Made by a program: the position numbers and the translations under genes. Shown here piece after piece: positions 7,340 through 54,060 of a stretch of 64,000 nucleotides of DNA. Source of the stretch: Acaryochloris sp. CCMEE 5410 (GTDB lineage: Bacteria; Cyanobacteriota; Cyanobacteriia; Thermosynechococcales; Thermosynechococcaceae). Under the pieces are notes generated by a model, which searched no databases, was not told where the DNA came from, and worked only from the letters and a program-made list of their open reading frames with translations. The stretch is from NCBI RefSeq assembly GCF_000238775.2, contig NZ_AFEJ02000006.1, forward strand, positions 186,001 through 250,000. The letters run 5' to 3'. How positions within the stretch are numbered: position 1 is the stretch's first letter; the number at the start of each line of letters is the position of its first letter.

Positions 7340-7564
7340 ATGGACCCTGAAGAAATCATCATCCGCTATTACAGCGAACCAATACCTGTGATGGTTGATC
7401 CGGGAAAGCATCACCCACGATATGAGCCAGATTTTCTTCTGGGTTGGATTTGTCAGGGCAGATGTAAAACACCTGTGCTCCAAAAATTCTCTAGCGGTGA
7501 GATTGTGGCTAAAGCAAAGTTCAGTAGAGCCCAATGTCTGTCTCGTGTGACTTACAACATTTAG
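7340..7564 (+). CDS. Conserved hypothetical protein, paralogue of 14523-14750
   Basis: A 74-residue protein started at the ATG at 7340 because homology with the 14523-14750 product begins there: both read M-[DE]-x-[ED]-E-I-I-I-R-Y-Y, then P-V-M-V-D-P-G, Y-E-P-D-[FI]-L-L-G-W-I-C-Q-G and P-V-L-Q-K-F. Conservation in two separated places indicates a real gene. No cofactor motif and only one conserved cysteine are seen; function unknown. The C-terminal tails of the two copies differ. Confidence 0.65.
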   Translation: MDPEEIIIRYYSEPIPVMVDPGKHHPRYEPDFLLGWICQGRCKTPVLQKFSSGEIVAKAKFSRAQCLSRVTYNI

Positions 7565-8015: not shown

Positions 8016-8429
8016 ATGACTCATATTCCAACCCTGAATTATCATCAGCTTGAGCTCTTAAGATTAGCCAAAAAGCATTCTGTGGAAGAAATACACTTTG
8101 ATTACGAGTTACCCTACATTAATGACTGTAAACCCCCCAGTGGTCATCCTTCATTCATTCAAGAATTAATTGATGAACATCTCATTCAAGTTCAAGAGAG
8201 AGGGACCTCTTTATGTGCTTCACTGTTTCAGAAAGAGAGTTGGACCAATTTCAGTAAAGAGATTGACTATCCCAACCAAACCGACTGGGATCGATGGCGA
8301 CAGGGGTTTATCGCCCAGCTTGATGAAGGCTTTGTATACCTTATGACACCTGGACGGGGTTATGGAGAGTTCTGCAAAGTCTGGATCCGAGAGATAAGCA
8401 TTCGAGCAGTTCAGCCTAGCAGTCTGTGA
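8016..8429 (+). CDS. Hypothetical protein, family shared with 30090 and 30602
   Basis: A 137-residue protein with two paralogues in the window (30090-30494 and 30602-31024). All three start [IV]-P-[TS]-L-x-x-x-Q-L-x-[IL]-L-R-L-A-K, contain I-Q-E/K-[LM]-I-D-x-x-L-[IV]-[EQ]-V-Q, W-x-x-[WR]-R-x-x-F-I-A, and end F-x-x-V-W-[IV]-[RQ]-E-[IM]-x-x-[RQ]-A-[VI]-Q-P. The N-terminal part looks like a small winged helix or helical bundle. Function unknown; three dispersed copies suggest a multicopy accessory family. Confidence 0.7.
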   Translation: MTHIPTLNYHQLELLRLAKKHSVEEIHFDYELPYINDCKPPSGHPSFIQELIDEHLIQVQERGTSLCASLFQKESWTNFSKEIDYPNQTDWDRWRQGFIAQLDEGFVYLMTPGRGYGEFCKVWIREISIRAVQPSSL

Positions 8430-14273: not shown

Positions 14274-14346
14274 GCTGGCGGGAAGTCTCCGAACAGTTTA
14301 AGAATGGCAATGCTGGCCTGTCGGTGAAGATGCTCAGAGAAGAAAA

Positions 14347-14531
14347 GACGCTCGCCACTGGGCAGGTTTCGGGGCTGGTGTTGGGTCGATGATGGGCTTG
14401 AGATGATGCGGAAGTAGGCCCCCCGAAACAAGCAAAAGTGTAGCGTACTTTAGATCGGCAATGTCGCCTTCGCAAAACCGGGCTTTTGCTCTGCTCCCTG
14501 CCTTTAACTTAGGGATGTTGCACTATTGGAT
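14347..14531 (-). repeat. Dispersed intergenic repeat, copy R1
   Basis: About 185 bases shared with R2 at 29388-29571 and in part with R3 at 30521-30611. On the minus strand it begins at the stop codon of the 14523-14750 gene. Conserved elements are a hairpin GCAAAA/TTTTGC at 14472-14489 and the words GTTTCGGGG (14365-14373) and CCCCGAAAC (14421-14429), which can pair across 47 bases. Structure conservation suggests an RNA or a small mobile element. Confidence 0.6.
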
Positions 14532-14750
14532 TCTTTTGAGCTTGGTTCGAGTTTTGGGAATGGTATCGGGTTTACTCTTAGCCACTATCTCAGCATCAGG
14601 GAATTTCTGGAGTACTGGCCATCTATGCTCACCCTGGCAAATCCAGCCGAGCAATATATCAGGCTCATAAGATGAGTGACTCATCCCAGGATCCACCATG
14701 ACAGGCATCGGCGGGCAATAATAGCGGATGATGATTTCATCAGATTCCAT
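14523..14750 (-). CDS. Conserved hypothetical protein, paralogue of 7340-7564
   Basis: A 75-residue protein starting M-E-S-D-E-I-I-I-R-Y-Y and sharing P-V-M-V-D-P-G, Y-E-P-D-I-L-L-G-W-I-C-Q-G and P-V-L-Q-K-F with the 7340 product. The stop codon sits inside the R1 repeat, so the repeat may have supplied the last codons. Same unknown function as its paralogue. No partner gene is shared between the two locations. Confidence 0.6.
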   Translation of the reverse strand: MESDEIIIRYYCPPMPVMVDPGMSHSSYEPDILLGWICQGEHRWPVLQKFPDAEIVAKSKPDTIPKTRTKLKRIQ

Positions 14751-18851: not shown

Positions 18852-19037
18852 AAGATTATTACAGAAAGTCAATGAAATCTTTGAGTAGAGTTACAATTCC
18901 TTGACTTTTACCAGATTTATGTATACTCAAACACTTTTCTGAGATTACTAATATTAGACACGAGTTCGGGGATTGATGCGAGATTGCGATCGCATTTCCA
19001 ATACCAAGCCCTAAGCACGAAGCTCCAACACCCTTAC

Positions 19038-21635: not shown

Positions 21636-22676
21636 TGCCGGTCAATTTTCTCAATGAGTCGGAGCGCACTCACCTTAGTCAGATTCCTGCAGACATCCTT
21701 GAGATCGATCTCAACAAATATTTCACTTTGACACCAGAAGATATCCAGCAGGTTAAACGGCAACGGCAGCCCCATAACCAATTGGGCTTCGCGATCCAGT
21801 TGTGTACGCTGCGATTTTTAGGCTTTTGTCCTGATGATTTGCAACAGACACCCACTCAGGTTTTAGAGTTTGTGGCCCAGCAGATTAACATTACCGTCGA
21901 GCATCTGCAGCGGTATGGCAAGCGGGCGCAAACCCGCACTGCCCATTTACAGCAAGTGCAGCATTACTTGGGTTTTCGAACTCCCAAATCTAAGGACTTA
22001 AAGGCACTGGGGAAATGGATGTTAGAGCGGGCATTGGAACATGACGAACCTTTGCTGCTATTCCAACAAGCAGCGGAAAAACTATTGGCACAAAAGTTGG
22101 TGCGTCCCAGGATAACTACGATTGAGCGGATGGTAAGTACAGCCCGCAACCAAGCCATGAAAGTGACCTACCAGATGATGAAGCCATTGGTTAAGGCCTC
22201 AGGGCGAAAATTTCTCAACGATCTGCTCAAGCCCGAGGGAGACGGTAAGGCGATCCGATTAAGTCGATTGCGGTGGCCGGCCACCAGTAATTCAGCCGCT
22301 GAAATTTTGAGAGTCATTGAGAAGATCAACTTTCTGCGCAGCCACAACGTTCATCAATGGGATGTCACAGAGTTTAATCCGAATCGACTTAAATTCCTGG
22401 CTCGATTAGCTAAAAAGACTAGCATCAAGTCATTCAAGCGAATCCCCGTAGAACGGCGGTATCCGTTACTGATCGCTTTTTTGCAGCAACTGCTAATCGA
22501 GACTACGGATGAGGCCATCGATCTATTTATTCGTTGTTTATCAGATGCTCATTCCAAAGCTCGACGAGAACTGCGAGACTTTCGCCAAAAAGAAGCGGTC
22601 GCGATCAATGAAAAGGTCATGCTCCTGCAGCAGTTAGGTGGAGTCATCTTAGATCCAGCGGTAGAAGATCCTGCAG
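21635..22676 (+). pseudogene. tnpA: Tn3 transposase, 5' part (split by IS21)
   Basis: Encodes the first 347 residues of a Tn3-family TnpA: N-terminal DNA-binding region (I-D-L-N-K-Y-F-T-L-T-P-E-D, Q-L-G-F-A-I-Q-L-C-T-L-R-F, R-Y-G-K-R-A-Q-T-R) that recognises the 38-bp ends. The frame continues into the IS and stops there. Joining to 25540 restores codon GTG and an uninterrupted 995-residue protein, the normal length for the family, so the gene was intact before the IS arrived. Confidence 0.9.
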
Positions 22677-22932
22677 TGCATATTCTCACCAACTTCTCCA
22701 CCCCTGTGGAGGTTGACTTCTCCGGTCGAATGGCAGTAACTTCTCCACCCCTATGGAAGTTATCTTCGCCAGTCAAGTGGCAATAAACTTCTCCACCCCT
22801 GTGGCAACAACTTCGCCGGATAAGTGGCAGTTAACTTCTCCACCCCCTTAACCATCATTTCGACAGGTCATTATCCCTAGCCAGGCCAACCTCTAAACTT
22901 CTGTGCATTAGCCAGAGGAATGGAGATTGGCA

Positions 22933-24485
22933 ATGGCCTATAAACGTCAAGGAGCAACCCTGTCGATGAGTAAATTTCGCGAAATTATCCGTTTACATGA
23001 ACTCGGCCACAATAAATCGGAGATCGCTCGTAGCTGCTTCATCTCCCGTACCAGTGTCCGGGACTATCTGCGCCGTGCCCAGGGTCAATCTCTCAGTTAT
23101 GACCAGTTAAGCCAACTGAGTGATAGTGATATCCAGCATTTGCTGGGAAAAGGTCAGCGTCAGTCCTCCCGTAAGAAGCCAGCGATTGACTTCGAATATG
23201 TGCATCGAGAGATGCAACGCAAAGGGGTCACCCTGGGCCTACTGTGGATGGAGGGTAAAGAGAGAGGAGACTGGAACTGTAGCTATAGTGGCTTTTGCCG
23301 TCGATACCGTCAGTGGAAAAAGCAGCACTCGCTATCCATGCGCCAGATTCACAAGGGAGCGGAAAGATTTTTGTGGACTACTGCGGTATGACGGTGCCGG
23401 TGGTCCATCCCAAAACCGGTGAGGTGACTCAAGCTCAAGTATTTGTAGCCTGCTGTGGAGCGAGTAACTACACCTATGCAGAGGCGACCGAAAGCCAAAC
23501 CATCAAGAACTGGCTCGGATCTCATCAACGGGCCTTGGCCTTCTTTGGTGGGGTGCCGGTCGCTATCGTTCCAGACAACCTCAAGTCAGGAGTCACAGAT
23601 CCGTGTCGTTATGAGCCCGGTATCAATCGGAGTTATCAGGACTTTGCGGAACACTACAACGTGATTATTCTGCCCGCTCGCCCCAAATGCCCTCGGGATA
23701 AACCCAAAGTGGAGAATGCGGTACAGCAAGTGGAGCGTCATATCCTAGCGCCATTGAGAGATCAGACCTTTACCAGTTTCAAGCAACTGAATGAAGCGAT
23801 AGCAGCGGGACTCGAGAAACTCAACCATCGGACCATGAAATCCTATGGTCTATCCCGTCGAGAATTATTTGAGCAAGTGGACCAACCGGAACTGAGGTCC
23901 TTGCCCAGCCATGCGTTTGAGTTTGGCGAATTTAAAACTGCGAAAGTGAGTTTTGATTATCACATTGAGGTGAACCGCCACTATTACAGTGTCCCTTATG
24001 GCTATGTGGGTCAATCGGTATCGGTCAAGATTACGGAATCTTTGGTGCAGATTTTCCATGACCATCAGCGCATTGCGGTACATGAACGTTCCAGCGTTTC
24101 ATTTCAGCATTCCACGCAAGAGGGGCATATGCCCCCGGCACATTTGGCTCACAAAACCCAATCGAGAGAGACCTTCCTAGCTTGGGCCGAGAAGGTTGGA
24201 CCGGCCACGAAGCAGCAAGTGATAGAGATCTTTGAGAAGAAAGCCCATGACGAACAAGCATTTCGAGCCTTAAAAGGGGTGCAACATCTGAGAACAACCC
24301 ATGGTGCTGAAAGGTTGGAAGCCGCCTGTAATCGGGCTAATGCTATGGGGATGGTGGGCCAACGCTATCTCAAGTCCATGCTCCAAAACAAACTTGAATC
24401 CGACCCCTTACCGGATGAAACCCATAAGGTGATTCCTATTCACCATGCCAATGTCCGAGGGTCCGAATATTATCAAGCGACGTAG
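22933..24485 (+). pseudogene. istA: IS21 transposase, frameshifted
   Basis: About 517 codons when corrected: N-terminal helix-turn-helix (I-R-L-H-E-L-G-H-N-K-S-E-I-A-R) followed by an RNase-H-fold integrase domain (F-V-D-Y-C-G-M-T, V-P-D-N-L-K-S-G, P-R-D-K-P-K-V-E-N). Relative to copy 2 a single base is missing around 23365-23370 (GGAAAG here, GGAAAAAA there), which breaks the frame after K-G-A-E. The start at 22933 has GGAGA six bases before ATG. Confidence 0.88.
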
Positions 24486-24496
24486 GGGAGACAACG

Positions 24497-25356
24497 ATGC
24501 AAGCAATGATTGAACAGCTACAACAAATGAACTCACCGGCGTACTCGAAGCTTGGCGAGAACAGCAGGCGATGCCCACCTATCATGATCTGTCCTTCGAT
24601 GAACGACTGGCCTTGATGGTAGAGCGCGAATACATCCGGCGTCAGAATCAACGGATGCAACGCCGACTCAGGCAAGCGCGACTGCCGGTGCATGCCACCT
24701 TAGATGCCGTGGATTTCGATGTCCCAGAGGACTCCGTAAAATCCAGTTCCTTGAATTTGCTCAAGGCCATTGGCTCCAAGAAAACCTGTCATTGATTCTA
24801 TTGGGGCCGACCGGTGTAGGGAAGTCTTTCTTGGCGTCGGTCCTTGCAAATCATCTGTGCAAGCAAGGCCATAGCGTGCGCTATATCAAAACCGCTGACC
24901 TGGTGCTGGAGTTGAAGCTGGCCAAAGGAGATGGGTCTTATCCCAAACTCCGAAAACAATTAGCGGCCTACGATCTATTGGTGCTGGATGAATGGCTTAG
25001 AGATCCCCTGTCTGTCTTTGAAGCTCGAGAAGTACTCGATATCCTAGACGAGCGTTTCCGTAAAGCCTCCTGTTTATTCGCCACGCAAATGCCCCTGGAG
25101 CAATGGCACTCACAATTCAAGATCCCACCCTCGCCGATGCCATCCTCGACCGGATTATCCATGATGCGATGAAGGTCTTGCTCCGAGGAGAATCCATGCG
25201 GAAATTGACCAGCAAACTGACCCTGAAGCCAGAAGGAGAACTGAGTAATGACCGTTCACATGAGGAGAAAACAACGAGAGAAACGATCCCAAGATCTAAC
25301 CTTAAACGCACAAGGAGAAGAAGGATGAAAAAAAGGAGGGACAGATACATGAATAG
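24497..25356 (+). pseudogene. istB: IS21 helper ATPase, multiply frameshifted
   Basis: Corresponds to the intact 287-residue IstB of copy 2. Walker A G-P-T-G-V-G-K-S and Walker B L-L-V-L-D-E-W are present, but single-base losses near 24530, 24725 and 25118 break the frame, so no complete helper protein is made. The frame errors are spread over the gene, indicating relaxed selection, not a single accident. Confidence 0.88.
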
Positions 25357-25539
25357 ACCGGATGAGATCACGATCTTCCATTCGTGATATGTATGAATTC
25401 AGAGCTGATTTTTTGCCTATGAATTGCAACCCATAATTCCATATCTACCTGTCGAAAATGGTTGGCCAATATTTTTTTGGTTGGGGGTGGAGAAGTTAGT
25501 GCCACTCAACCGGAGAAGTCGTGATTATGCAGCATGCAG

Positions 25540-27485
25540 TGCGATCTGACATTTTTGAGTGTGTCTCGCCAGAGCAGCTGCAGGCTGCCCTGGCAGATTG
25601 TGAGCGAATAGTTCGGCCTGCCAAAGATGAATCCTATGATTACTTTGCCAATCGCTACAGCTATTTTCGTCAGTTTGCACCTGCATTTCTGAGCACCTTT
25701 GAGTTTCACTCTCATCGCCAAGATGATCCGCTCCTCAAAGCCATCAATCACATCCGTGAATTAGATACTGGCGGCCAACGGCAGATTTCAGAAGACGCGC
25801 CTATGGAGTTTGTTACAGAGGCTTGGCAGGAATATATCTATGACGACCAGGGGCAGATAAAACGCCGCTACTATGAATTGTGTGTGCTCTGGGAACTCCG
25901 TCATGCGTTAAGCACCGGTGCTCTTTGGATTGAAGGGGCACGCCGCTACGCGAATCCAGAAAGCTACTTGATCCCAAAGCAAAAATGGGAGGAGATGCGC
26001 AGTGAGTTTTGCCAATTCACGGGTCTACCTGAAACTGGAGCAGAACGATTGGCCCAGTTGAGTGAGCAATTAGAAGCAGAGATGACAACATTTGTTGACA
26101 CTCTCCAACAGAATCCAGATATCCGCCTAGAAGAGGAGCATCTTGTCATTTCTCCCCTGGATGCGGAGGAAGAATCTCCACGTCTTCAGCAATTGAAAGT
26201 CTTAGTTGAACAATGTATGCCACAGGTTGAGTTAACAGAACTGTTGATAGAAGTGGATGAATTGACTCACTTTAGTGATGCTTTAATCCATACCGGAGGG
26301 AATGCAAATCGCACAGATAATACCAAGCTGCACCTCTATGCCTCTTTGCTTTCCCAGGCGTGTAATTTAGGGCCAGCGGCAATGGCTAGAGGGGCCGATC
26401 TGTCCTATGACAGCTTGCTTTGGCATACCAACTGGTACTTAGATGAAACCAATTTACGCAATGCCAATACGATGTTGGTGAACTATCATCATCAATTGCC
26501 CTTAACTAAGGCTTGGGGAGGCGGAACCCTATCCTCTTCTGATGGACAGCGATTTCCAGTGGCGGTCAAAAATGCTAAAGCAGTGCCGTTGCCCAAATAT
26601 TTTGGTTATGGCCGAGGCGTTACGTTTTATACCTGGCTCTCAGATCAGTTCTCCCAATATGGAATTAAGGTGATTCCTTCCACCAAAAGAGATGCGACCT
26701 ATCTACTTGATGGAATTCAGGATAATGAAACTGAGTTGACGATTTTGGAACATACTACTGACACCACGGGGTATTCGGAGGTCGTATTTTCCTTTTTTGA
26801 TCTGTGTGGGTATCGCTTCTCACCTCGGATTCGCGATCTGGCTGACCAGACATTGTATCGCCTCAGTAATAAGTTTCCGGATCCGCTCCTCAAGCCACTC
26901 TTTCAGGGCCGGTGTCAGCAACAGTTCATCATCGATGACTGGGATGAGATGCTACGTACAGCAGCCTCACTCAAGTATGGATGGGTCAGTTCTTCGTTAT
27001 TGATGAATAAGCTACAATCCTTGCCAGACCCCCATCATCTCTTGAGAGCATTTCATGAATACGGGCGGCTATTGAAGACTATTTTTATCCTGCAGTATCT
27101 CAATAGCAAGGATTATCGACGGCGGATTAACCGTCAGCTCAATAAAGGTGAGTCGGTGCATACTTTACGCCGATATTTTGTCATTGCTCAGCAAGGTGAA
27201 TTACGAAAACGGCATCAAGAAGGATTAGAAAATCAAGCGAGCTGTTTGACCTTAGTGACGAATGCTGTGGTGGTCTGGAATACGATCTATCTAAATGCCG
27301 CACTAGAGTACATCGAACGGCAGGGCTATGTCATAACTGAGGAGGATAAAGCACATCTCTCACCGGCACGATGTGGACACATCAACCCCTATGGAAAATT
27401 CAGCTTTGATATCCCTAAAGTGCAGAGCTTGAAAGGGTTACGGCCACTGAATGCTATTAAAAAAGCAAACTCTCAAAACTTCTAG
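25540..27485 (+). pseudogene. tnpA: Tn3 transposase, 3' part (split by IS21)
   Basis: Encodes the last 648 or so residues of TnpA, including the DDE catalytic domain: A-R-G-A-D-L-S-Y-D-S-L-L, G-G-G-T-L-S-S-S-D-G-Q-R-F, an E-H-T-T-D-T-T-G-Y block and the C-terminal Y-L-N-A-A-L-E-Y-I. An in-frame ATG within the IS end would allow a truncated product of 654 residues, but it would lack the end-recognition domain. Catalytic residues appear intact, so a rare precise IS excision would revive it. Confidence 0.9.
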
Positions 27486-27740: not shown

Positions 27741-28691
27741 TTAATCAGACTCTATTAATGATTCAATTTGCTGAATTAGTGATTCCAGCTTTTTCCTTTT
27801 CTTAGAATCTTCCCAAACTTTTGATTTTCCTACCTCTTTCGAAATAGTTTTCCACTTTTCCTTGTAGGAGGTTATCTCATGAGCTGGTTGTTTAGATTCC
27901 TTGATTGACTTAACTCTGTCGCGAATTTCTCTAATCGAAAGATTCTTCTTTGAAACTTCGCGCAGTAACTTAGCCCTTAATTTCTGGTCTTTGACTTTGG
28001 CTACTGCAAGCGCTTTAGTGTACTCAATCTTGCCTTGGCGGATAAACTCAAGAACATCCTGTGGCAACCGCAAGAGCTGTAGTTGATTTAATGCAAATGA
28101 GCGCCATCGGATGTTTAAGCTTTCACAAATTTGCACAACAACATCACTATCTTTTTGTCCTATAACGTTATAGGACTGACGACGGACATCATTGTCCATT
28201 TGCTTAAATAGAGCTATAACTTCCTCTTGGGACTTCTGTAGCTCAACAGATAACAAAGCTAGAACTGCTTCAACTTCCTCAACTGGATTCAAGTCTTCAT
28301 GATGCTTATTTTCAATTAGCTGTAACTTTAGTAGATCTCTAGTGTTAGGTCGATCAATGATGCGGACAGGTAATTCTTCTAATCCAGCAATATCTGAAGC
28401 TCGATACCGTCGCTCACCAAACACGAGCTGATAGAATCCTGGTTTATCAGGTAATTCAAAAACAGCCAAATCTTCTAAAATTCCTTGCTCTTTAATTGTC
28501 ATAGCAAGACTATCAAGTTTTTCAGAGTCAAAGTATTTTCGAACTTGATCATCATCTCGGACAATTCTGGAACGATGAATAAGTTGATGCTTGTAGCTAA
28601 TATTACTGCTATGGCTATAAGTCTGTTCAGTAGAATCTGCCTGGTCTTCTTCAGTTTGCAAAGTTGCTAGCAGCTTATTAAACTTCCCCAT
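27741..28691 (-). CDS. parB: ParB-type plasmid partition protein
   Basis: A 316-residue ParB. Residues about 45-135 form the ParB/Sulfiredoxin-like nuclease-fold domain with the CTP-binding motif F-G-E-R-R-Y-R-A and I-E-N-K-H-H-E-D-L-N-P-V-E-E. Residues about 140-230 are the helix-turn-helix region, and the C-terminus is a basic dimerisation part. ParB loads on centromere sites and works with ParA to segregate the replicon. It overlaps parA by 14 bases, so the two are translated together. No clear parS repeats were recognised nearby. Confidence 0.9.
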   Translation of the reverse strand: MGKFNKLLATLQTEEDQADSTEQTYSHSSNISYKHQLIHRSRIVRDDDQVRKYFDSEKLDSLAMTIKEQGILEDLAVFELPDKPGFYQLVFGERRYRASDIAGLEELPVRIIDRPNTRDLLKLQLIENKHHEDLNPVEEVEAVLALLSVELQKSQEEVIALFKQMDNDVRRQSYNVIGQKDSDVVVQICESLNIRWRSFALNQLQLLRLPQDVLEFIRQGKIEYTKALAVAKVKDQKLRAKLLREVSKKNLSIREIRDRVKSIKESKQPAHEITSYKEKWKTISKEVGKSKVWEDSKKRKKLESLIQQIESLIESD

Positions 28692-29283
28692 TTATGATCT
28701 CCTTGCAAATTGCAGTGTATTCTTTCCATGCAATCCCAGCACGTCGGTCGCTGACTTGATTTACAGCTACCCCTTCAAGAGCAGCCTTTTGAAAAGCCAC
28801 CAGTTCTCGCACTTTACCTTTGAATAAAGGTAACCCAGCTTCTTTTAGCATTTCTCTTGCCTCATCACCATCCTTACGAGGAAGAGATGGAACCCTAGTT
28901 AGTAAAATTTTGAATTGCTCTGACCCCAGCGACTGAAGCAATGTGACTGATTGAAGCAATGCATCTAACGACAACACATCGGGCGTAGTAGGAAGTATTA
29001 ATAAATCACAACCATCTACTAAATCTTGAAGATCATCTTCAGTAGGGCGAGCTTGAGTATCAATAACGATATGCTCATACTTCCGCGCATATTTTGCAGC
29101 TTGCTGTTCACCTACAACTTTAAAGGGCAAGCCATTTCCGCGTTTTGACCACCTGGATGCAGAACGATTAGGATCACCATCGACAAGTAGAGTATCCTTT
29201 TCGATCTGAAGACTAGCTGCAACATGAATTGCTGTTGTTGTTTTACCAACACCACCTTTGAATGAAGCTGTGGTGATAATCAT
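28678..29283 (-). CDS. parA: ParA-type partition ATPase
   Basis: A 201-residue Walker-type ATPase starting directly with the deviant Walker A box F-K-G-G-V-G-K-T-T-T. It then has L-V-D-G-D-P-N-R-S-A and the switch region I-V-I-D-T-Q-A-R. Without an N-terminal helix-turn-helix it is of the small (type Ib) class, in which ParB-type partners do the autoregulation. It drives segregation of the replicon on the nucleoid. First gene of the parAB pair, with an AT-rich upstream stretch that likely holds the promoter. This is the main evidence for a plasmid origin. Confidence 0.92.
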   Translation of the reverse strand: MIITTASFKGGVGKTTTAIHVAASLQIEKDTLLVDGDPNRSASRWSKRGNGLPFKVVGEQQAAKYARKYEHIVIDTQARPTEDDLQDLVDGCDLLILPTTPDVLSLDALLQSVTLLQSLGSEQFKILLTRVPSLPRKDGDEAREMLKEAGLPLFKGKVRELVAFQKAALEGVAVNQVSDRRAGIAWKEYTAICKEIINGEV

Positions 29284-29387
29284 TGAAAGCCAAGCTAATC
29301 AACAAGGAACAATTTAGCGCCTTCGTAAGCGGTTGTCCATAACGGAAAATATTTAGACGCAAAATTTAGGACAGATAGAAATACGAA

Positions 29388-29571
29388 ACGCTCGCCTCGG
29401 GGCAGTTTCGGGAGCTGATGTTGTGTCGAAGATTAGCCTGCGATGATGCGAAAGTGGGTGCCCCCGAAACTCGCAAGAGCTTAGCGCACCACGGATCGGC
29501 AAGGCCGCCTTCGCAAAACCAGGCTTTTGCTCTGCTCCCTGCCTTTATTTGAGGATGCTGCATTATTGGGA
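29388..29571 (-). repeat. Dispersed intergenic repeat, copy R2
   Basis: Aligns over about 180 bases with R1 (14347-14531), roughly three quarters identical by eye. It again begins at the stop codon of a minus-strand gene (29563). Conserved hairpin GCAAAA/TTTTGC at 29513-29530, and GTTTCGGG (29405-29412) pairs with CCCGAAAC (29463-29470). Confidence 0.6.
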
Positions 29572-30089: not shown

Positions 30090-30494
30090 CTAGCCTGGTT
30101 GAACCGCCCGGAATTCCATCTCTTGCACCCAGACATAGCTGAAGTCTTCAAACTCTTCCCCAGGTGAGATTAGAGTTGCCGATCCATCCTGACTAGCAAT
30201 AAACTCTTTTCGCCATAACTCCCAAGCATAGATGGATGGCAGCTCCAAGTCAGAGCAATACTCAAGCCAACACTGTTGCTGGAATTGTGAAATTCCACAG
30301 TGAACACAACTCTGTTGAACTTCGACCAATCCCAAGTCAATCATTTCTTGAATTAGCAAAGGGTTATGGGTCGGTGGTTCCCCATTGCCCATAACAGGAG
30401 ATTCAAATGATAGCTGAAGCGTTTCATCAGGGTTCTCTTTTGCCAGTCGCAAGATTTCCAATTGCACCTGGGTTAGAGAGGGGATCAAGACCAT
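30090..30494 (-). CDS. Hypothetical protein, family shared with 8016 and 30602
   Basis: A 134-residue member of the three-copy family. It begins I-P-S-L-T-Q-V-Q-L-E-I-L-R-L-A-K-E and ends D-F-S-Y-V-W-V-Q-E-M-E-F-R-A-V-Q-P. It shares P-G-E-E-F-E-D-F-S-Y-V-W with the neighbouring 30602 product, so these two are closer to each other than to the 8016 copy, consistent with local duplication. It has two cysteines in C-V-H-C that the others lack. Confidence 0.7.
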   Translation of the reverse strand: MVLIPSLTQVQLEILRLAKENPDETLQLSFESPVMGNGEPPTHNPLLIQEMIDLGLVEVQQSCVHCGISQFQQQCWLEYCSDLELPSIYAWELWRKEFIASQDGSATLISPGEEFEDFSYVWVQEMEFRAVQPG

Positions 30495-30520
30495 GCATTG
30501 TCCTCGTTTTGTTGAAATAC

Positions 30521-30611
30521 TAGCGCACCCAGATCGGCTATGTCACTTGGAGTAAAAGCATGGTTTTGCCCCAATGCCTGCCTTTAATTGGAATCATTGC
30601 ACTACTGGAGG
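30521..30611 (-). repeat. Dispersed intergenic repeat, copy R3 (short, diverged)
   Basis: About 90 bases corresponding to the first half of R1 and R2 as read on the minus strand, again starting at a stop codon (30602 gene). It keeps TGCA-A/G-, AAAGGCAGG, a CAAAA/CTTTT hairpin, GCCGATC and a GCGCTA end, but lacks the second half. Confidence 0.45.
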
Positions 30612-31024
30612 ATTGAGTCTTCACACGGTTGAATTGCTTGGACTCCTATTTCTTGAATCCATACATAGCTAAAATCCTCAAATTCTTCCCCAGGTATGGC
30701 TACTCGTTCCGAGCCTTTCAGCCTAGCAATAAATTTATCTCGCCATATCTCCCAGACAAGAGTAGACGGATACGCTAAGTCTCCACTGAATTTAGCCCAT
30801 GATTTCTTTTGAAACCGTGAGAAATCGCAACGCATTTGCTTGGACTGAACTTCAATCAAATCCAAGTCAATCAGTTTCTGGATAAGCGCTGTATACCCTG
30901 CTGGAGGTCCACCATAATTGATGATTGGCAATTCGCAATATAGCTGAATCGTCTTACCAGGATACTTTTTGGCAAGCCTCAAAATCGCTAATTGTTTTAG
31001 GGAAAGGGTTGGGATGCAAACCAT
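30602..31024 (-). CDS. Hypothetical protein, family shared with 8016 and 30090
   Basis: A 140-residue member started at the ATG at 31024, where homology begins (I-P-T-L-S-L-K-Q-L-A-I-L-R-L-A-K-K); an in-frame start at 31069 would add 15 unrelated residues. It keeps L-I-D-L-D-L-I-E-V-Q, F-I-A-R-L, G-E-E-F-E-D-F-S-Y-V-W-I-Q-E-I and A-I-Q-P. It differs from the others by a short extra tail, E-D-S-I-L-Q, whose stop lies in R3. First of a three-gene minus-strand run. Confidence 0.7.
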   Translation of the reverse strand: MVCIPTLSLKQLAILRLAKKYPGKTIQLYCELPIINYGGPPAGYTALIQKLIDLDLIEVQSKQMRCDFSRFQKKSWAKFSGDLAYPSTLVWEIWRDKFIARLKGSERVAIPGEEFEDFSYVWIQEIGVQAIQPCEDSILQ

Positions 31025-31233
31025 TCGATTAATCCGCGCTAGAAAAATATTAGCACCACTTCGCTCCACCTTCTAAGGTTTGCGCCTATCTCACCACGTA
31101 CACATCCATTGCTGGAAGCGGATTTCCGACGTAAAAAATAGAACATCTTAGATTAAAGAAGGGCATCCTAAATGTATTGGGTGGAGCCATTTTTTATGAG
31201 CTTACCTCTATGTGTTACGGGAGAAAAAAGTAA

Positions 31234-36145: not shown

Positions 36146-36328
36146 CCCTCTGCAGCATAATCACGACTTCTCCGGTTGAGTGGCACTAACTTCTCCACCC
36201 CCAACCAAAAAAATATTGACCAACCATTTTCGACAGGTAGATATGGAATTACGGATTGCAATTCATAGGCAAAAATTCAGATCTAAATCCATACATATCA
36301 CGAATGGAAGATCGTGATCTCATCCGGT

Positions 36329-37192
36329 CTATTCATCCATCTGTCCCTCCTTTTTTTCACCCTTCTTCTCCTTGTGCGTTTTAGGGTTAGATCTTGGGGT
36401 CGTTTCTCTCGTTGTTTTCTCCTCATGTGAACGGTCATTTCTCAGTTCTCCTTCTGGCTTCAGGGTCAGTTTGCTGGTCAATTTCCGCATGGATTCTCCT
36501 CGGAGCGAGACCTTCATCGCATCATGGATAATCCGGTCCAGGATGGCATCAGCCAGAGTGGGATCTTGAATTTGTGAGTGCCATTGTTCTAGGGGCATTT
36601 GCGTGGCAAATAAACAGGAGGCTTTGCGAAACCGCTCGTCTAGGATATCGAGCACTTCTCTAGCCTCAAAGACAGATAGAGGATCTCTAAGCCATTCATC
36701 CAGCACCAGTAGATCGTAGGCAGCTAATTGTTTTCGGAGTTTGGGATAGGACCCATCTCCTTTGGCCAACTTCAACTCCAGCACCAGATCAGCGGTTTTG
36801 ATATAGCGGACGCTATGGCCTTGCTTACACAAATGATGGGCCAGTACGGCCGCTAAGAACGACTTCCCTACACCGGTCGGCCCTAATAGAATCAATGACA
36901 GATTTTCTTGGAGCCAATGACCTTGAGCAAATTCAAGGAACTGGATCTTACGGAGTCCTCTGGGGACATCGAAATCTACAGCATCTAAGGTGGCGTGCAC
37001 CGGTAGTCGAGCTTGTCGAAGTCGGCGTTGCATCCGTTGATTCTGACGCCGGATGTATTCGCGCTCTACCATCAAGGCCAGTCGTTCATCGAAGGACAGA
37101 TCATGATAGGTGGGCAAGGCCTGTTGTTCTCGCCAAGCCTCCAAGAGGCCCGTGAGCTTCATGTGTTGCAGCTGTTCAATCATCGCTTGCAT
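36329..37192 (-). CDS. istB: IS21 helper ATPase IstB
   Basis: A 287-residue AAA+ ATPase. The N-terminal domain (I-E-Q-L-Q-H-M-K-L-T-G-L-L-E-A-W) is followed by Walker A G-P-T-G-V-G-K-S-F-L-A, Walker B D-L-L-V-L-D-E-W and the sensor region L-F-A-T-Q-M-P. IstB assembles on target DNA and stimulates IstA. The C-terminal 45 residues are charged (K-K-G-E-K-K-E-G), unusual for the family but without structural consequence that can be judged. It starts 12 bases after the istA stop. Confidence 0.93.
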   Translation of the reverse strand: MQAMIEQLQHMKLTGLLEAWREQQALPTYHDLSFDERLALMVEREYIRRQNQRMQRRLRQARLPVHATLDAVDFDVPRGLRKIQFLEFAQGHWLQENLSLILLGPTGVGKSFLAAVLAHHLCKQGHSVRYIKTADLVLELKLAKGDGSYPKLRKQLAAYDLLVLDEWLRDPLSVFEAREVLDILDERFRKASCLFATQMPLEQWHSQIQDPTLADAILDRIIHDAMKVSLRGESMRKLTSKLTLKPEGELRNDRSHEEKTTRETTPRSNPKTHKEKKGEKKEGQMDE

Positions 37193-37204
37193 GACTTTCT
37201 CCCC

Positions 37205-38758
37205 CTACGTTGCTTGATAGTATTCAGACCCTCGGACATTGGCATGGTGAATGGGAATCACCTTATGGGTTTCATCCGGTAAGGGGTCGGATTCTAGTTT
37301 GTGTTGGAGCATGGACTTGAGATAGCGTTGGCCCACCATCCCCATAGCATTAGCCCGATTACAGGCGGCTTCCAATCTTTCAGCACCATGGGTTGTTCTG
37401 AGATGTTGCACCCCTTTTAAGGCTCGAAATGCTTGTTCATCATGGGCTTTCTTCTCAAAGATCTCTATCACTTGTTGCTTCGTTGCCGGTCCAACATTCT
37501 GAGCCCAGGTGATGAAGGTCTCTCTCGATTGGTTTTTGTGAGCCAAATGCGCCGGTGGCATATGCCCCTCTTGCGTGGAATGCTGAAATGAAACGCTGGA
37601 ACGTTCATGCACCGCGATGCGCTGATGATCATGGAAAATCTGTACTAAGGATTCAGTGATCTTGACCGATACCGACTGGCCCACATAGCCATAAGGGACA
37701 CTGTAATAGTGGCGGTTCACCTCAATGTGATAATCAAAACTCACTTTTGCGCTCTTCCATTCGCCAAACTCAAACGAGAGACTGGGCAAGGGTCTGAGTT
37801 CTGGTTGGTCCACTTGCTCAAATAATTCTCGACGGGATAGACCATAGGATTTCATGGTCCGATGGTTGAGTTTCTCCAACCCTGCTGCAATCGCTTCATT
37901 CAGTTGCTTGAAACTGGTAAAGGTCTGATCTCTCAAGGGAGCCAGAATATGACGTTCCACTTGCTGCACTGCATTCTCTACTTTGGGTTTGTCCCGAGGG
38001 CATTTGGGGCGAGCGGGCAAGATGATCACGTTGTAGTGTTCCGCAAAGTCTTGATAACTCCGATTGATACCGGGCTCATAACGGCACGGATCTGTGACTC
38101 CTGACTTGAGGTTGTCTGGAACGATAGCGACCGGCACCCCACCAAAGAAGGCCAAGGCCCGTTGATGAGATCCGAGCCAGTTCTTAATGATTTGGCTTTC
38201 GGTCGCTTCTGCATAGGTGTAGTTACTCGCTCCACAGCAGGCCACAAATACTTGAGCTTGAGTCACCTCACCAGTTTTGGGATGGACCACCGGAACGGTC
38301 ATTCCGCAGTAGTCCACAAAGATTTTTTCCGCTCCCTTGTGGGTCTGGCGCATGGACAGCGAATGCTGTTTTTTCCACTGGCGGTATCGACGACAAAAGC
38401 CACTATAGCTACAGTTCCAGTCTCCTCTCTCTTTACCTTCCATCCACAGCAGGCCCAGGGTGACCCCTTTGCGTTGCATCTCTCGATGTATATATTCGAA
38501 ATCAATTGCAGGTTTCTTACGGGAGGACTGACGTTGACCTTTTCCCAGCAGATGCTGGATATCACTATCACTCAGTTGGCTTAACTGGTCATAACTGAGT
38601 GATTGACCCTGGGCACGGCGCAGATAGTCCCGGACACTGGTACGGGAGATGAAGCAGCTACGAGCGATCTCCGATTTATTGTGGCCAAGTTCATGTAAAC
38701 GGATAATTTCTCTAAATTTACTCATCGACAGGGTTGCTCCTTGACGTTTATAGGCCAT
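37205..38758 (-). CDS. istA: IS21 transposase IstA
   Basis: A 517-residue transposase from the ATG at 38758, with GGAGA six bases upstream (a TTG two codons earlier is less well placed). N-terminal helix-turn-helix (H-N-K-S-E-I-A-R-S-C-F-I-S-R-T-S-V), then the DDE integrase core with F-V-D-Y-C-G-M-T, V-P-D-N-L-K-S and K-P-K-V-E-N, then the Mu-type C-terminal beta-barrel (S-V-P-Y-G-Y-V-G). It cuts and joins the element ends bound at the multiple terminal repeats. Complete frame. Confidence 0.94.
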   Translation of the reverse strand: MAYKRQGATLSMSKFREIIRLHELGHNKSEIARSCFISRTSVRDYLRRAQGQSLSYDQLSQLSDSDIQHLLGKGQRQSSRKKPAIDFEYIHREMQRKGVTLGLLWMEGKERGDWNCSYSGFCRRYRQWKKQHSLSMRQTHKGAEKIFVDYCGMTVPVVHPKTGEVTQAQVFVACCGASNYTYAEATESQIIKNWLGSHQRALAFFGGVPVAIVPDNLKSGVTDPCRYEPGINRSYQDFAEHYNVIILPARPKCPRDKPKVENAVQQVERHILAPLRDQTFTSFKQLNEAIAAGLEKLNHRTMKSYGLSRRELFEQVDQPELRPLPSLSFEFGEWKSAKVSFDYHIEVNRHYYSVPYGYVGQSVSVKITESLVQIFHDHQRIAVHERSSVSFQHSTQEGHMPPAHLAHKNQSRETFITWAQNVGPATKQQVIEIFEKKAHDEQAFRALKGVQHLRTTHGAERLEAACNRANAMGMVGQRYLKSMLQHKLESDPLPDETHKVIPIHHANVRGSEYYQAT

Positions 38759-39014
38759 TGCCAATCTCCATTCCTCTGGCTAATGCACAGAAGTTTAGAG
38801 GGTGGCCTGGCTAGGGATAATGACCTGTCGAAATGATGGTTAGGGGGGTGGAGAAGTTAACTGCCACTTATCCGGCGAAGTTTTTGCCACAAGGGTGGAG
38901 AAGTTTATTGCCATTTGACTGGCGAAGATAACTTCCACAGGGGTGGAGAAGTTACTGCCATTCGACCGGAGAAGTTACCCTCCCAAGGGGTGGAGAAGTT
39001 ACTGAGAATATGCA

Positions 39015-39922
39015 CCCTCCACACTCCGAACCCGATTGCTCGTGTCTTTGCCGTAAGCCGTCTCCACCAGAACAGGAGAACAGAACTTTTCTAATCCCTT
39101 ACGAATTCGTTCTAGGGTTGCTGGCTTTAGGGGCCTTTTGCGCTCACCTACCTTGGTGCTGGGATAGCTCCAGTCAATGGCGGTATGGGCTGGGGTGTAG
39201 TACGGCTCCACCACCTGAGCGCAACTGGGGCAGCGATATACATATTGATTTCGCTTGCCGTAGCGTCCCCACTTCTTAAATGGGTTTTTCCAGGACTGAA
39301 TGGCCTCGACCTCGCCACACTCCGAACAGTGGGCCAGAGGAGTAAAGCTGAGATTGGGTTTGGGGTTGTTTTTTCTCCAGAAGACGATGTAAACCCGGTC
39401 TCTGCTTTGCGGCGTCGAACCTGCAAACATGCTATTGAAGAACACTGCCTCATGGTCATACCCCAAGGAATGCATGGCATTGAGCCAGCTATCGAACAAG
39501 ATCCAGTGATGTACCTCGACCACATTCTCCACAACAACGAAGTTGTACTGATGAACCTCTGAAAATCTGACGACATCCCAGAGCGTAGCCCGTGACCGAC
39601 TTTCAGCCGGGTCAATGGTCTGGGGGTTGAACAAGTCCATCTGGCCCAGGTTCTTTCGCTTTTTCCCTCTGGCTAAACTATGGTTCGTGCATTCAGGGCT
39701 AGTAATCAAAATGTCGGTACTGGGATAGCGACAAGGGTCACAAGCGCTGATATCCACGCAATCATGGGCAGTATCGGGGAAGTTGGTATTGTGGGTTTCC
39801 ACCGCACGTTCCCAGTGGTTAATCGCCATAACAATCTCGCAGCCCGCTTGGGAAGCACCACTGCTCGAACCGCCACAGCCGCAAAATTGATCAGTGACGG
39901 TGATATAAGATTTCTTCTTCAT
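39015..39922 (-). pseudogene. Cytosine-5 DNA methyltransferase, 5' part (split by IS21)
   Basis: Starts at the ATG at 39922 (M-K-K-K-S-Y-I-T). Motif I D-Q-F-C-G-C-G-G-S-S-S-G-A binds S-adenosylmethionine; motif IV is I-T-S-P-E-C-T-N-H-S with the catalytic Cys in S-P-E-C instead of the usual P-P-C; motif VI V-V-V-E-N-V-V-E and motif VIII Q-S-R-D-R-V-Y follow. A C-x2-C pair set (C-S-E-C, C-P-S-C) forms a probable zinc ribbon in the target-recognition region. Phage- or plasmid-type orphan methyltransferase; no restriction partner nearby. Interrupted after R-S-V-E-G. Confidence 0.9.
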
Positions 39923-54001: not shown

Positions 54002-54060
54002 GGTCTTGCCACAGGCGACTCTACCTCACCCAGAGCGGCGACGGTTTATCTCTAAGCCCT

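Follow-up and report, generated by a model that had tools for sequence, protein, structure and literature searches.

Rolling-circle plasmids carry single-strand origins (sso), and primosome assembly sites (n'-pas) are strand-specific hairpins of plasmids and ssDNA phages. Integron attC sites are imperfect palindromes with RYYYAAC/GTTRRRY core boxes. The relaxase gene of a MobF plasmid is directed away from oriT, a layout that we refer to as R388-type. Also among the systems closest to the locus described here are Frpo and ssi, the single-stranded promoters of F and ColIb-P9 (available sections of PMC11541004, PMC9849209 and PMC7736820).

The window, a stretch of 64,000 nucleotides covering positions 186001-250000 of contig C6 (312,852 bases) of Acaryochloris sp. 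CCMEE 5410, contains the three repeats R1, R2 and R3 reported in the original prediction, and sequence comparison confirms them with refined bounds. R1 and R2 each hold a complete two-domain element of ~190 nt and align with each other at 82% over 182 nt (E 3.7e-41). R3 consists of the 5' half alone and aligns at model positions 3-91; we read R3 and the other half copies as remnants or recombinants.

14337-14528, minus strand: R1, full two-domain element (sequence-model match C6:200337-200528 and R1/R2 alignment)
29378-29568, minus strand: R2, full two-domain element (sequence-model match C6:215378-215568 and R1/R2 alignment)
30518-30606, minus strand: R3, domain 1 only, its GCGCTA end fused to promoter-like bases of the next X gene

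We tentatively propose, with a confidence somewhat short of an even chance, that R1 and R2 are plasmid-borne single-strand initiation elements, ssi/sso-like or ssDNA-promoter-like. The acting strand would be the one that enters the recipient in conjugation or is displaced during replication. On this single strand, two adjacent imperfect hairpins (domain 1 and domain 2) would fold and recruit the host RNA polymerase or primosome, and this recruitment would start synthesis of the second strand and, perhaps, early transcription as well. We infer that the fold forms in DNA and not in RNA, that it serves to prime synthesis, and what protein would bind it.

Like Frpo and ssi, the element is plasmid-borne, folded and strand-specific relative to transfer, and three copies lie near ArdC-type genes. 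We do not class it as Frpo because two tested features, a highly stable hairpin and homology to F, are lacking: against 60 shuffles each, the DNA folds of R1 and R2 lie near those of the shuffles (z -0.3 and -0.1; -4.3 for the region before F ssb) and are not highly stable hairpins, and the F leading region is matched by R2 over 25 nt (E 0.13) and by R1 not at all at E 1. Further differences from Frpo are the cyanobacterial host and the often large distance from the relaxase. A linear consensus scan for sigma-70-like promoters found no -35/-10 pair inside R1 or R2. The R2 similarity consists of two weak 25-nt matches in F (80%, E 0.13; L268 13574-13598 and 18964-18988) that may be due to chance. 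They lie on the gene strand, one immediately ahead of ssb and one upstream of the gene at 19033, sites at which the available accounts describe Frpo2 (PMC9849209) and Frpo1, respectively.

The element resembles sso in that one relative lies on the rep strand of a small plasmid with an annotated Rep, pRF1, and differs in that most copies are found on large plasmids. With primosome assembly sites it shares the character of strand-specific hairpins on plasmids, and a domain 1 core occurs in a microvirus; this comparison is with the general description of such sites, and the microvirus core lies on the strand opposite the genes.

The 5' half (domain 1, ~88 nt) is exactly 88 nt long in 18 of the 20 copies measured. 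It is conserved from TAATGCAGC or TAGTGCAAC through to GCGCTA and encloses an inner hairpin, GCAAAA/TTTTGC. The 3' half passes through GTTTCGGGG and CCCCGRAAC and on to GGCGAGCG, often followed by a T-run; its domain 2 comprises a closing stem, CGCU/AGCG, and a long stem, GTTTCGGG/CCCGRAAC. The long-range pairing GTTTCGGG/CCCGAAAC reported earlier is present in both R1 and R2. The GCAAAA/TTTTGC hairpin, reported for all three repeats, is perfect in R1 and R2 but imperfect in R3 (TTTTAC). In the literature searched, we found no mention of GAGGATATGCCGC. The predicted stems of the two full copies are as follows.

14472-14489, minus strand: R1 domain 1 apical hairpin GCAAAA/TTTTGC (sequence; one pair doubly changed in 6/17)
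29513-29530, minus strand: R2 domain 1 apical hairpin GCAAAA/TTTTGC (sequence; pairing analysis within Acaryochloris)
14421-14429, minus strand: R1 domain 2 stem P2, 5' arm (sequence and covariation)
14366-14374, minus strand: R1 domain 2 stem P2, 3' arm (sequence and covariation)
14442-14445, minus strand: R1 closing stem P0, 5' arm CGCT (sequence and covariation)
14349-14352, minus strand: R1 closing stem P0, 3' arm AGCG (sequence and covariation)
29463-29470, minus strand: R2 domain 2 stem P2, 5' arm (sequence and covariation)
29405-29412, minus strand: R2 domain 2 stem P2, 3' arm (sequence and covariation)
29483-29486, minus strand: R2 closing stem P0, 5' arm CGCT (sequence and covariation)
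29389-29392, minus strand: R2 closing stem P0, 3' arm AGCG (sequence and covariation)

Covariation, which the original prediction had called for in its two stems, was found in part. Within Acaryochloris the evidence for pairing is thin, with double changes in 2 of the 31 pairs of the whole-element fold (RNAalifold), and 6 of 17 copies carry a double change at a single pair of the GCAAAA/TTTTGC hairpin. When the set includes stem arms of the distant relatives L033b, C16, G330 and pRF1 (18 distinct sequences), both sides have changed in 7 of the 14 pairs of domain 2, a count reached by 1 of 500 shuffles and compared with at most 3 for slid partners; cutting the arms by eye biases this count towards structure. 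These changes support a putative structured element with conserved stems, whereas the folds of R1 and R2, modelled as RNA or as DNA, are no better than those of shuffles and speak against it. Copies from another genus of the family, read after the covariation test, agree with the layout, and in L033b, on pMB02, the stem is replaced. A simple descriptor of domain 2 hits 7 of 8 cyanobacterial sequences (two via other arms), missing R2, and none of 10 non-cyanobacterial sequences. A protein-coding origin was considered and rejected: in one frame of the 88-nt half, second positions vary least without variation being highest at third positions, the 3' half has frame-shifting indels, and tblastn of the translated consensus returned Acaryochloris records only (8/8).

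Using a sequence-only model built from 16 full copies (E up to 0.1), we found that the family is located mainly on plasmids. The window's genome has eight matches, seven of them on the plasmid-size contigs C3-C6 (176-416 kb) and the eighth, weak (E 0.034), on C1 (4.5 Mb); C1 and C2 are almost devoid of the element. C6 has four copies, three of which share a strand. In the plasmid collection, 11 records, selected because they match, carry 1-3 copies each, and all are from Acaryochloris. Of six other Acaryochloris genomes, five match at E up to 0.1, one of them no better than 0.09. A. marina MBIC10699 has four pREC plasmids, as reported in the available part of PMC9324425, and each of the four has one copy or more, the pREC2 copy being degenerate; plasmids pREB1-9 of MBIC11017 are absent among the matches obtained. 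Of 339 cyanobacterial genomes, three pass E 0.01: the genome of the window itself, a genome from a different genus of the family, with three copies, and a third with a weak match (0.005).

The orientation of the copies is uniform with respect to the MobF relaxase. On the 11 replicons with a MobF relaxase, 17/17 copies lie opposite the relaxase gene strand: three copies on pMB04, two each on pMB06, pREC4, pREC1 and pREC3, and one each on pMB03, pMB08, pREC2, C5, C4 and C3. The count covers replicons with a relaxase match, and pMB02, pMB05, pMB07 and C6, which have none, are left out. The chance of such a bias is ~0.001 if the replicons are taken as independent, and the replicons share ancestry; the bias may reflect common descent of the plasmid backbones. 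Since a relaxase gene that points away from oriT makes the element strand the one expected to be transferred, the copies are expected, by analogy with the R388-type layout, to lie on the strand transferred in conjugation, as Frpo does; gene order in P. putida pIEC33019 is similar to this layout. Full or near-full copies lie 13-102 kb from the relaxase match. Specifically, pMB04, pMB06 and pMB08 each have a copy 13-14 kb away, near ArdC genes. In seven replicons the distance is 30-235 kb: six copies at 30-102 kb, and the C3 half copy at 235 kb along the contig, are outside any obvious leading region. The strand bias relative to MobF points to a role in plasmid transfer or replication.

The main rival, unlikely in our estimate but serious, is a plasmid-borne gene for a structured non-coding RNA, in which the 5' half would be a promoter region with a -10-like TAnnnT end and the 3' half would encode an RNA of ~95 nt with a long stem and a T-run. 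TAnnnT is present (by eye) at the GC-TA end of 18/18 full copies, half copies fuse at this end to the promoter region of an X gene, many copies have a T-run following AGCG, and domain 2 contains compensatory pairs, all of which an RNA gene would accommodate. However, neither a promoter nor a terminator was matched inside R1, and R2 has no promoter match and a single weak terminator-like match at its 3' end. Rfam gave no match at the gathering score in the window and, with looser limits at seven further loci, sub-threshold matches only, none of them to the element. RNA folding is no better than that of shuffled sequences (z -0.4 for R2, +0.8 for R1), and an RNA gene does not by itself predict the 17/17 strand bias.

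We then return to the single-strand initiation element, for which distant relatives provide a wider frame. A model made from Acaryochloris copies alone finds G330 (E 2e-10), pRF1 (1e-7) and C16 (2e-6), and also the three copies in the other genus of the family; taken together, relatives occur in that genus, in a further cyanobacterial family and on plasmid pRF1. In pRF1, which we take to replicate by the rolling-circle mode, the relative lies on the same strand as the rep gene. C16 is a divergent copy (L119 841-1005) on a chromosome-like contig of genome G004, adjoining a plasmid-type core; its neighbours, assigned by eye, are G6PDH, OpcA and cobyrinate synthase-like genes. C16 and G330 have a stem with the core GTGGAATAC..GGATATGCCGC ahead of domain 2. 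Domain 1 of the window copies does not contain the GTGGAATACC..GGATATGCCGC core of the distant relatives G330, pRF1 and C16, and the window copies are tied to these core-bearing relatives by layout and domain 2 only.

The core itself is widespread, matching 151 plasmid records at E up to 0.001 and 213 at E up to 0.1 with a longer query; its range takes in plasmids of Proteobacteria, Actinobacteria, Bacilli and Cyanobacteria, as well as F and an ssDNA microvirus. In 3/3 proteobacterial MOBF plasmids checked, it lies upstream of leading-type genes and opposite MobF. P. putida pIEC33019 has two core copies in the stretch read, ~345 bp before genes running towards the relaxase, and in Burkholderia bpln_1p the core is 106 bp ahead of a methyltransferase gene. 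In F, a GTGGAATA..ATATGCCGC stem-loop core is found in the leading region (L268 9014-9059; F 54013-54058, minus), 108 bp before the DNA methylase gene and on the strand opposite that gene; it overlaps an annotated hypothetical ORF and lies apart from the region before ssb. A complete domain 1 core is also present in the Microviridae phage PQ006669 (L267 1456-1527), an ssDNA phage, where it is intergenic and on the strand opposite the genes. On plasmids with non-MOBF relaxases, core and relaxase share a strand in Arthrobacter (MOBP) and B. badius (MobV, partial 32-nt core) and lie on opposite strands in Providencia (MobV). We considered the core beside C16 as an oriT, as suggested by the Arthrobacter match ~290 nt before mobC, and rejected this on the contexts in Geobacillus, pRF1, pCCK381 and Providencia and on the position of the core inside a stem; no PF03432 relaxase was found in 14 genomes or records.

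It is possible, though we hold it doubtful, that single-strand start elements across plasmids at large form one ancient class, with the core GTGGAATAC..[hairpin]..GAGGATATGCCGCGAAAG inside a variable stem; the two-domain form would belong to Cyanobacteria, and in Acaryochloris the element would have spread through a strain's plasmids with domain 1 rewritten. The position of the core would also suit a leader or promoter element of a divergent gene on the opposite strand, since a divergent gene starts ~84-116 nt beyond it in pRF1, F, Burkholderia, Arthrobacter, B. badius (partial core) and the microvirus; in P. putida the distance is ~345 nt. We regard such a leader as distinctly improbable for the window copies, which lack the core; no divergent gene of this kind stands beside R2 or the other par-type copies, and Arsenophonus and pCCK381 have no annotated divergent gene at that place.

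The original prediction placed the start of each repeat at the stop codon of a minus-strand gene, and this holds for all three window copies. The genes around them are the following.

14523-14750, minus strand: 75-aa ORF with its stop codon within the first bases of R1; a homologue precedes copy L014
29563-30045, minus strand: TPR gene with its stop codon within the first bases of R2
30602-31069, minus strand: X gene (Acaryochloris orphan family) with its stop codon in R3
30090-30494, minus strand: second X gene, between R3 and the TPR gene
28678-29283, minus strand: ParA-type gene adjoining R2 (context)
27741-28691, minus strand: ParB gene (context)

R2 is flanked by the TPR gene and the parA/parB genes, with the two X genes upstream. 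Of the 35 Acaryochloris copies examined, however, no more than 12 have their start at the stop codon of an ORF of at least 70 aa, and the other 23 abut no such ORF; a fixed position at gene 3' ends is not confirmed. The G330 relative likewise begins at a stop codon. As had been claimed, the genes concerned belong to families unrelated to one another, but each pairing recurs in related genes: the TPR family at R2, L032, L033b and C3 (C3 by eye), the X family at R3, L007, L028, L034 and C6_38, and the 75-aa family at R1, L014 and W05b (W05b by eye). Because of this recurrence, there have been few independent stop-codon events. The conserved start includes TAA or TAG, at which any in-frame ORF terminates, and we therefore read the position after a gene as inherited context. 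The proximity to stop codons would then seem to be a by-product of the genes that happen to accompany the element.

If the element acted in cis as a 3'-UTR or terminator of the gene ending in it, this would explain the stop codon at the same element position in the 12 copies and in G330. We consider this very unlikely given the 23 copies with no abutting ORF, the restriction of the 12 to three gene families, and the fact that 5 of the 39 X-type ORFs listed end in an element; neither a 3'-UTR element nor a cassette boundary, two of the alternatives first put forward, is supported as a general account. The X family (~134 aa) has 11 matches in the window's genome and occurs in 15 of 18 Acaryochloris genomes or plasmid records; among 292 cyanobacterial genomes, it was found in the window's own genome only, and the members scanned have no Pfam or NCBIfam match. 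At 8016-8429 (plus strand), the window has another X gene, which no element follows.

Other repeats are present in the window. An inverted 119-nt pair (14632-14750 and 7340-7458, 76% complementary) has one arm inside the 75-aa ORF before R1. Inverted copies of an rve/Mu-transpos_C_2 element (22676-25534 and 36151-39015; IS21-like by eye) have 47-bp end repeats and 91-96% identity in their five longest segments, and flank the ParB/X/R2 region; 25521-27485 is occupied by a gene for a Tn3-type transposase.

The several upstream contexts, the half copies and their common fusion point would fit a mobile sequence or a cassette boundary (MITE-, PATE- or attC-like). We nonetheless consider this very unlikely: neither whole-element terminal inverted repeats nor target duplications were seen by eye in the aligned copies, attC core boxes are absent, C1 and C2 are almost free of the element, and the strand is uniform relative to the relaxase. 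Integron attC was examined on its own: the element shares with it an imperfect palindrome of ~90 nt and, in part of the cases, a place at gene 3' ends, but no arrays were seen and the aligned ends are TAATGCAGC or TAGTGCAAC and GCGCTA, with no R'' RYYYAAC or R' GTTRRRY boxes. A cassette-like history is visible once, in the half copies R3, L013b and L033a, in all of which the junction with the -10-like bases of an X gene falls at an identical point. In our judgement, a single-strand start element explains the location, strand, structure and Rep-plasmid relative of the family better than a 3'-UTR element, a cassette or a mobile repeat.

Conversion of the incoming single strand and early expression in cyanobacterial conjugative plasmids are not covered in the available sections of PMC9324425, PMC11541004, PMC7736820 and PMC9849209, and the word "cyanobacteria" is absent from the main text of PMC11541004. 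A strand-specific element on the plasmids of several Acaryochloris strains would offer a first handle on both processes, and the shared domain 1 core, including its copy in the F leading region, would be testable in E. coli K-12.
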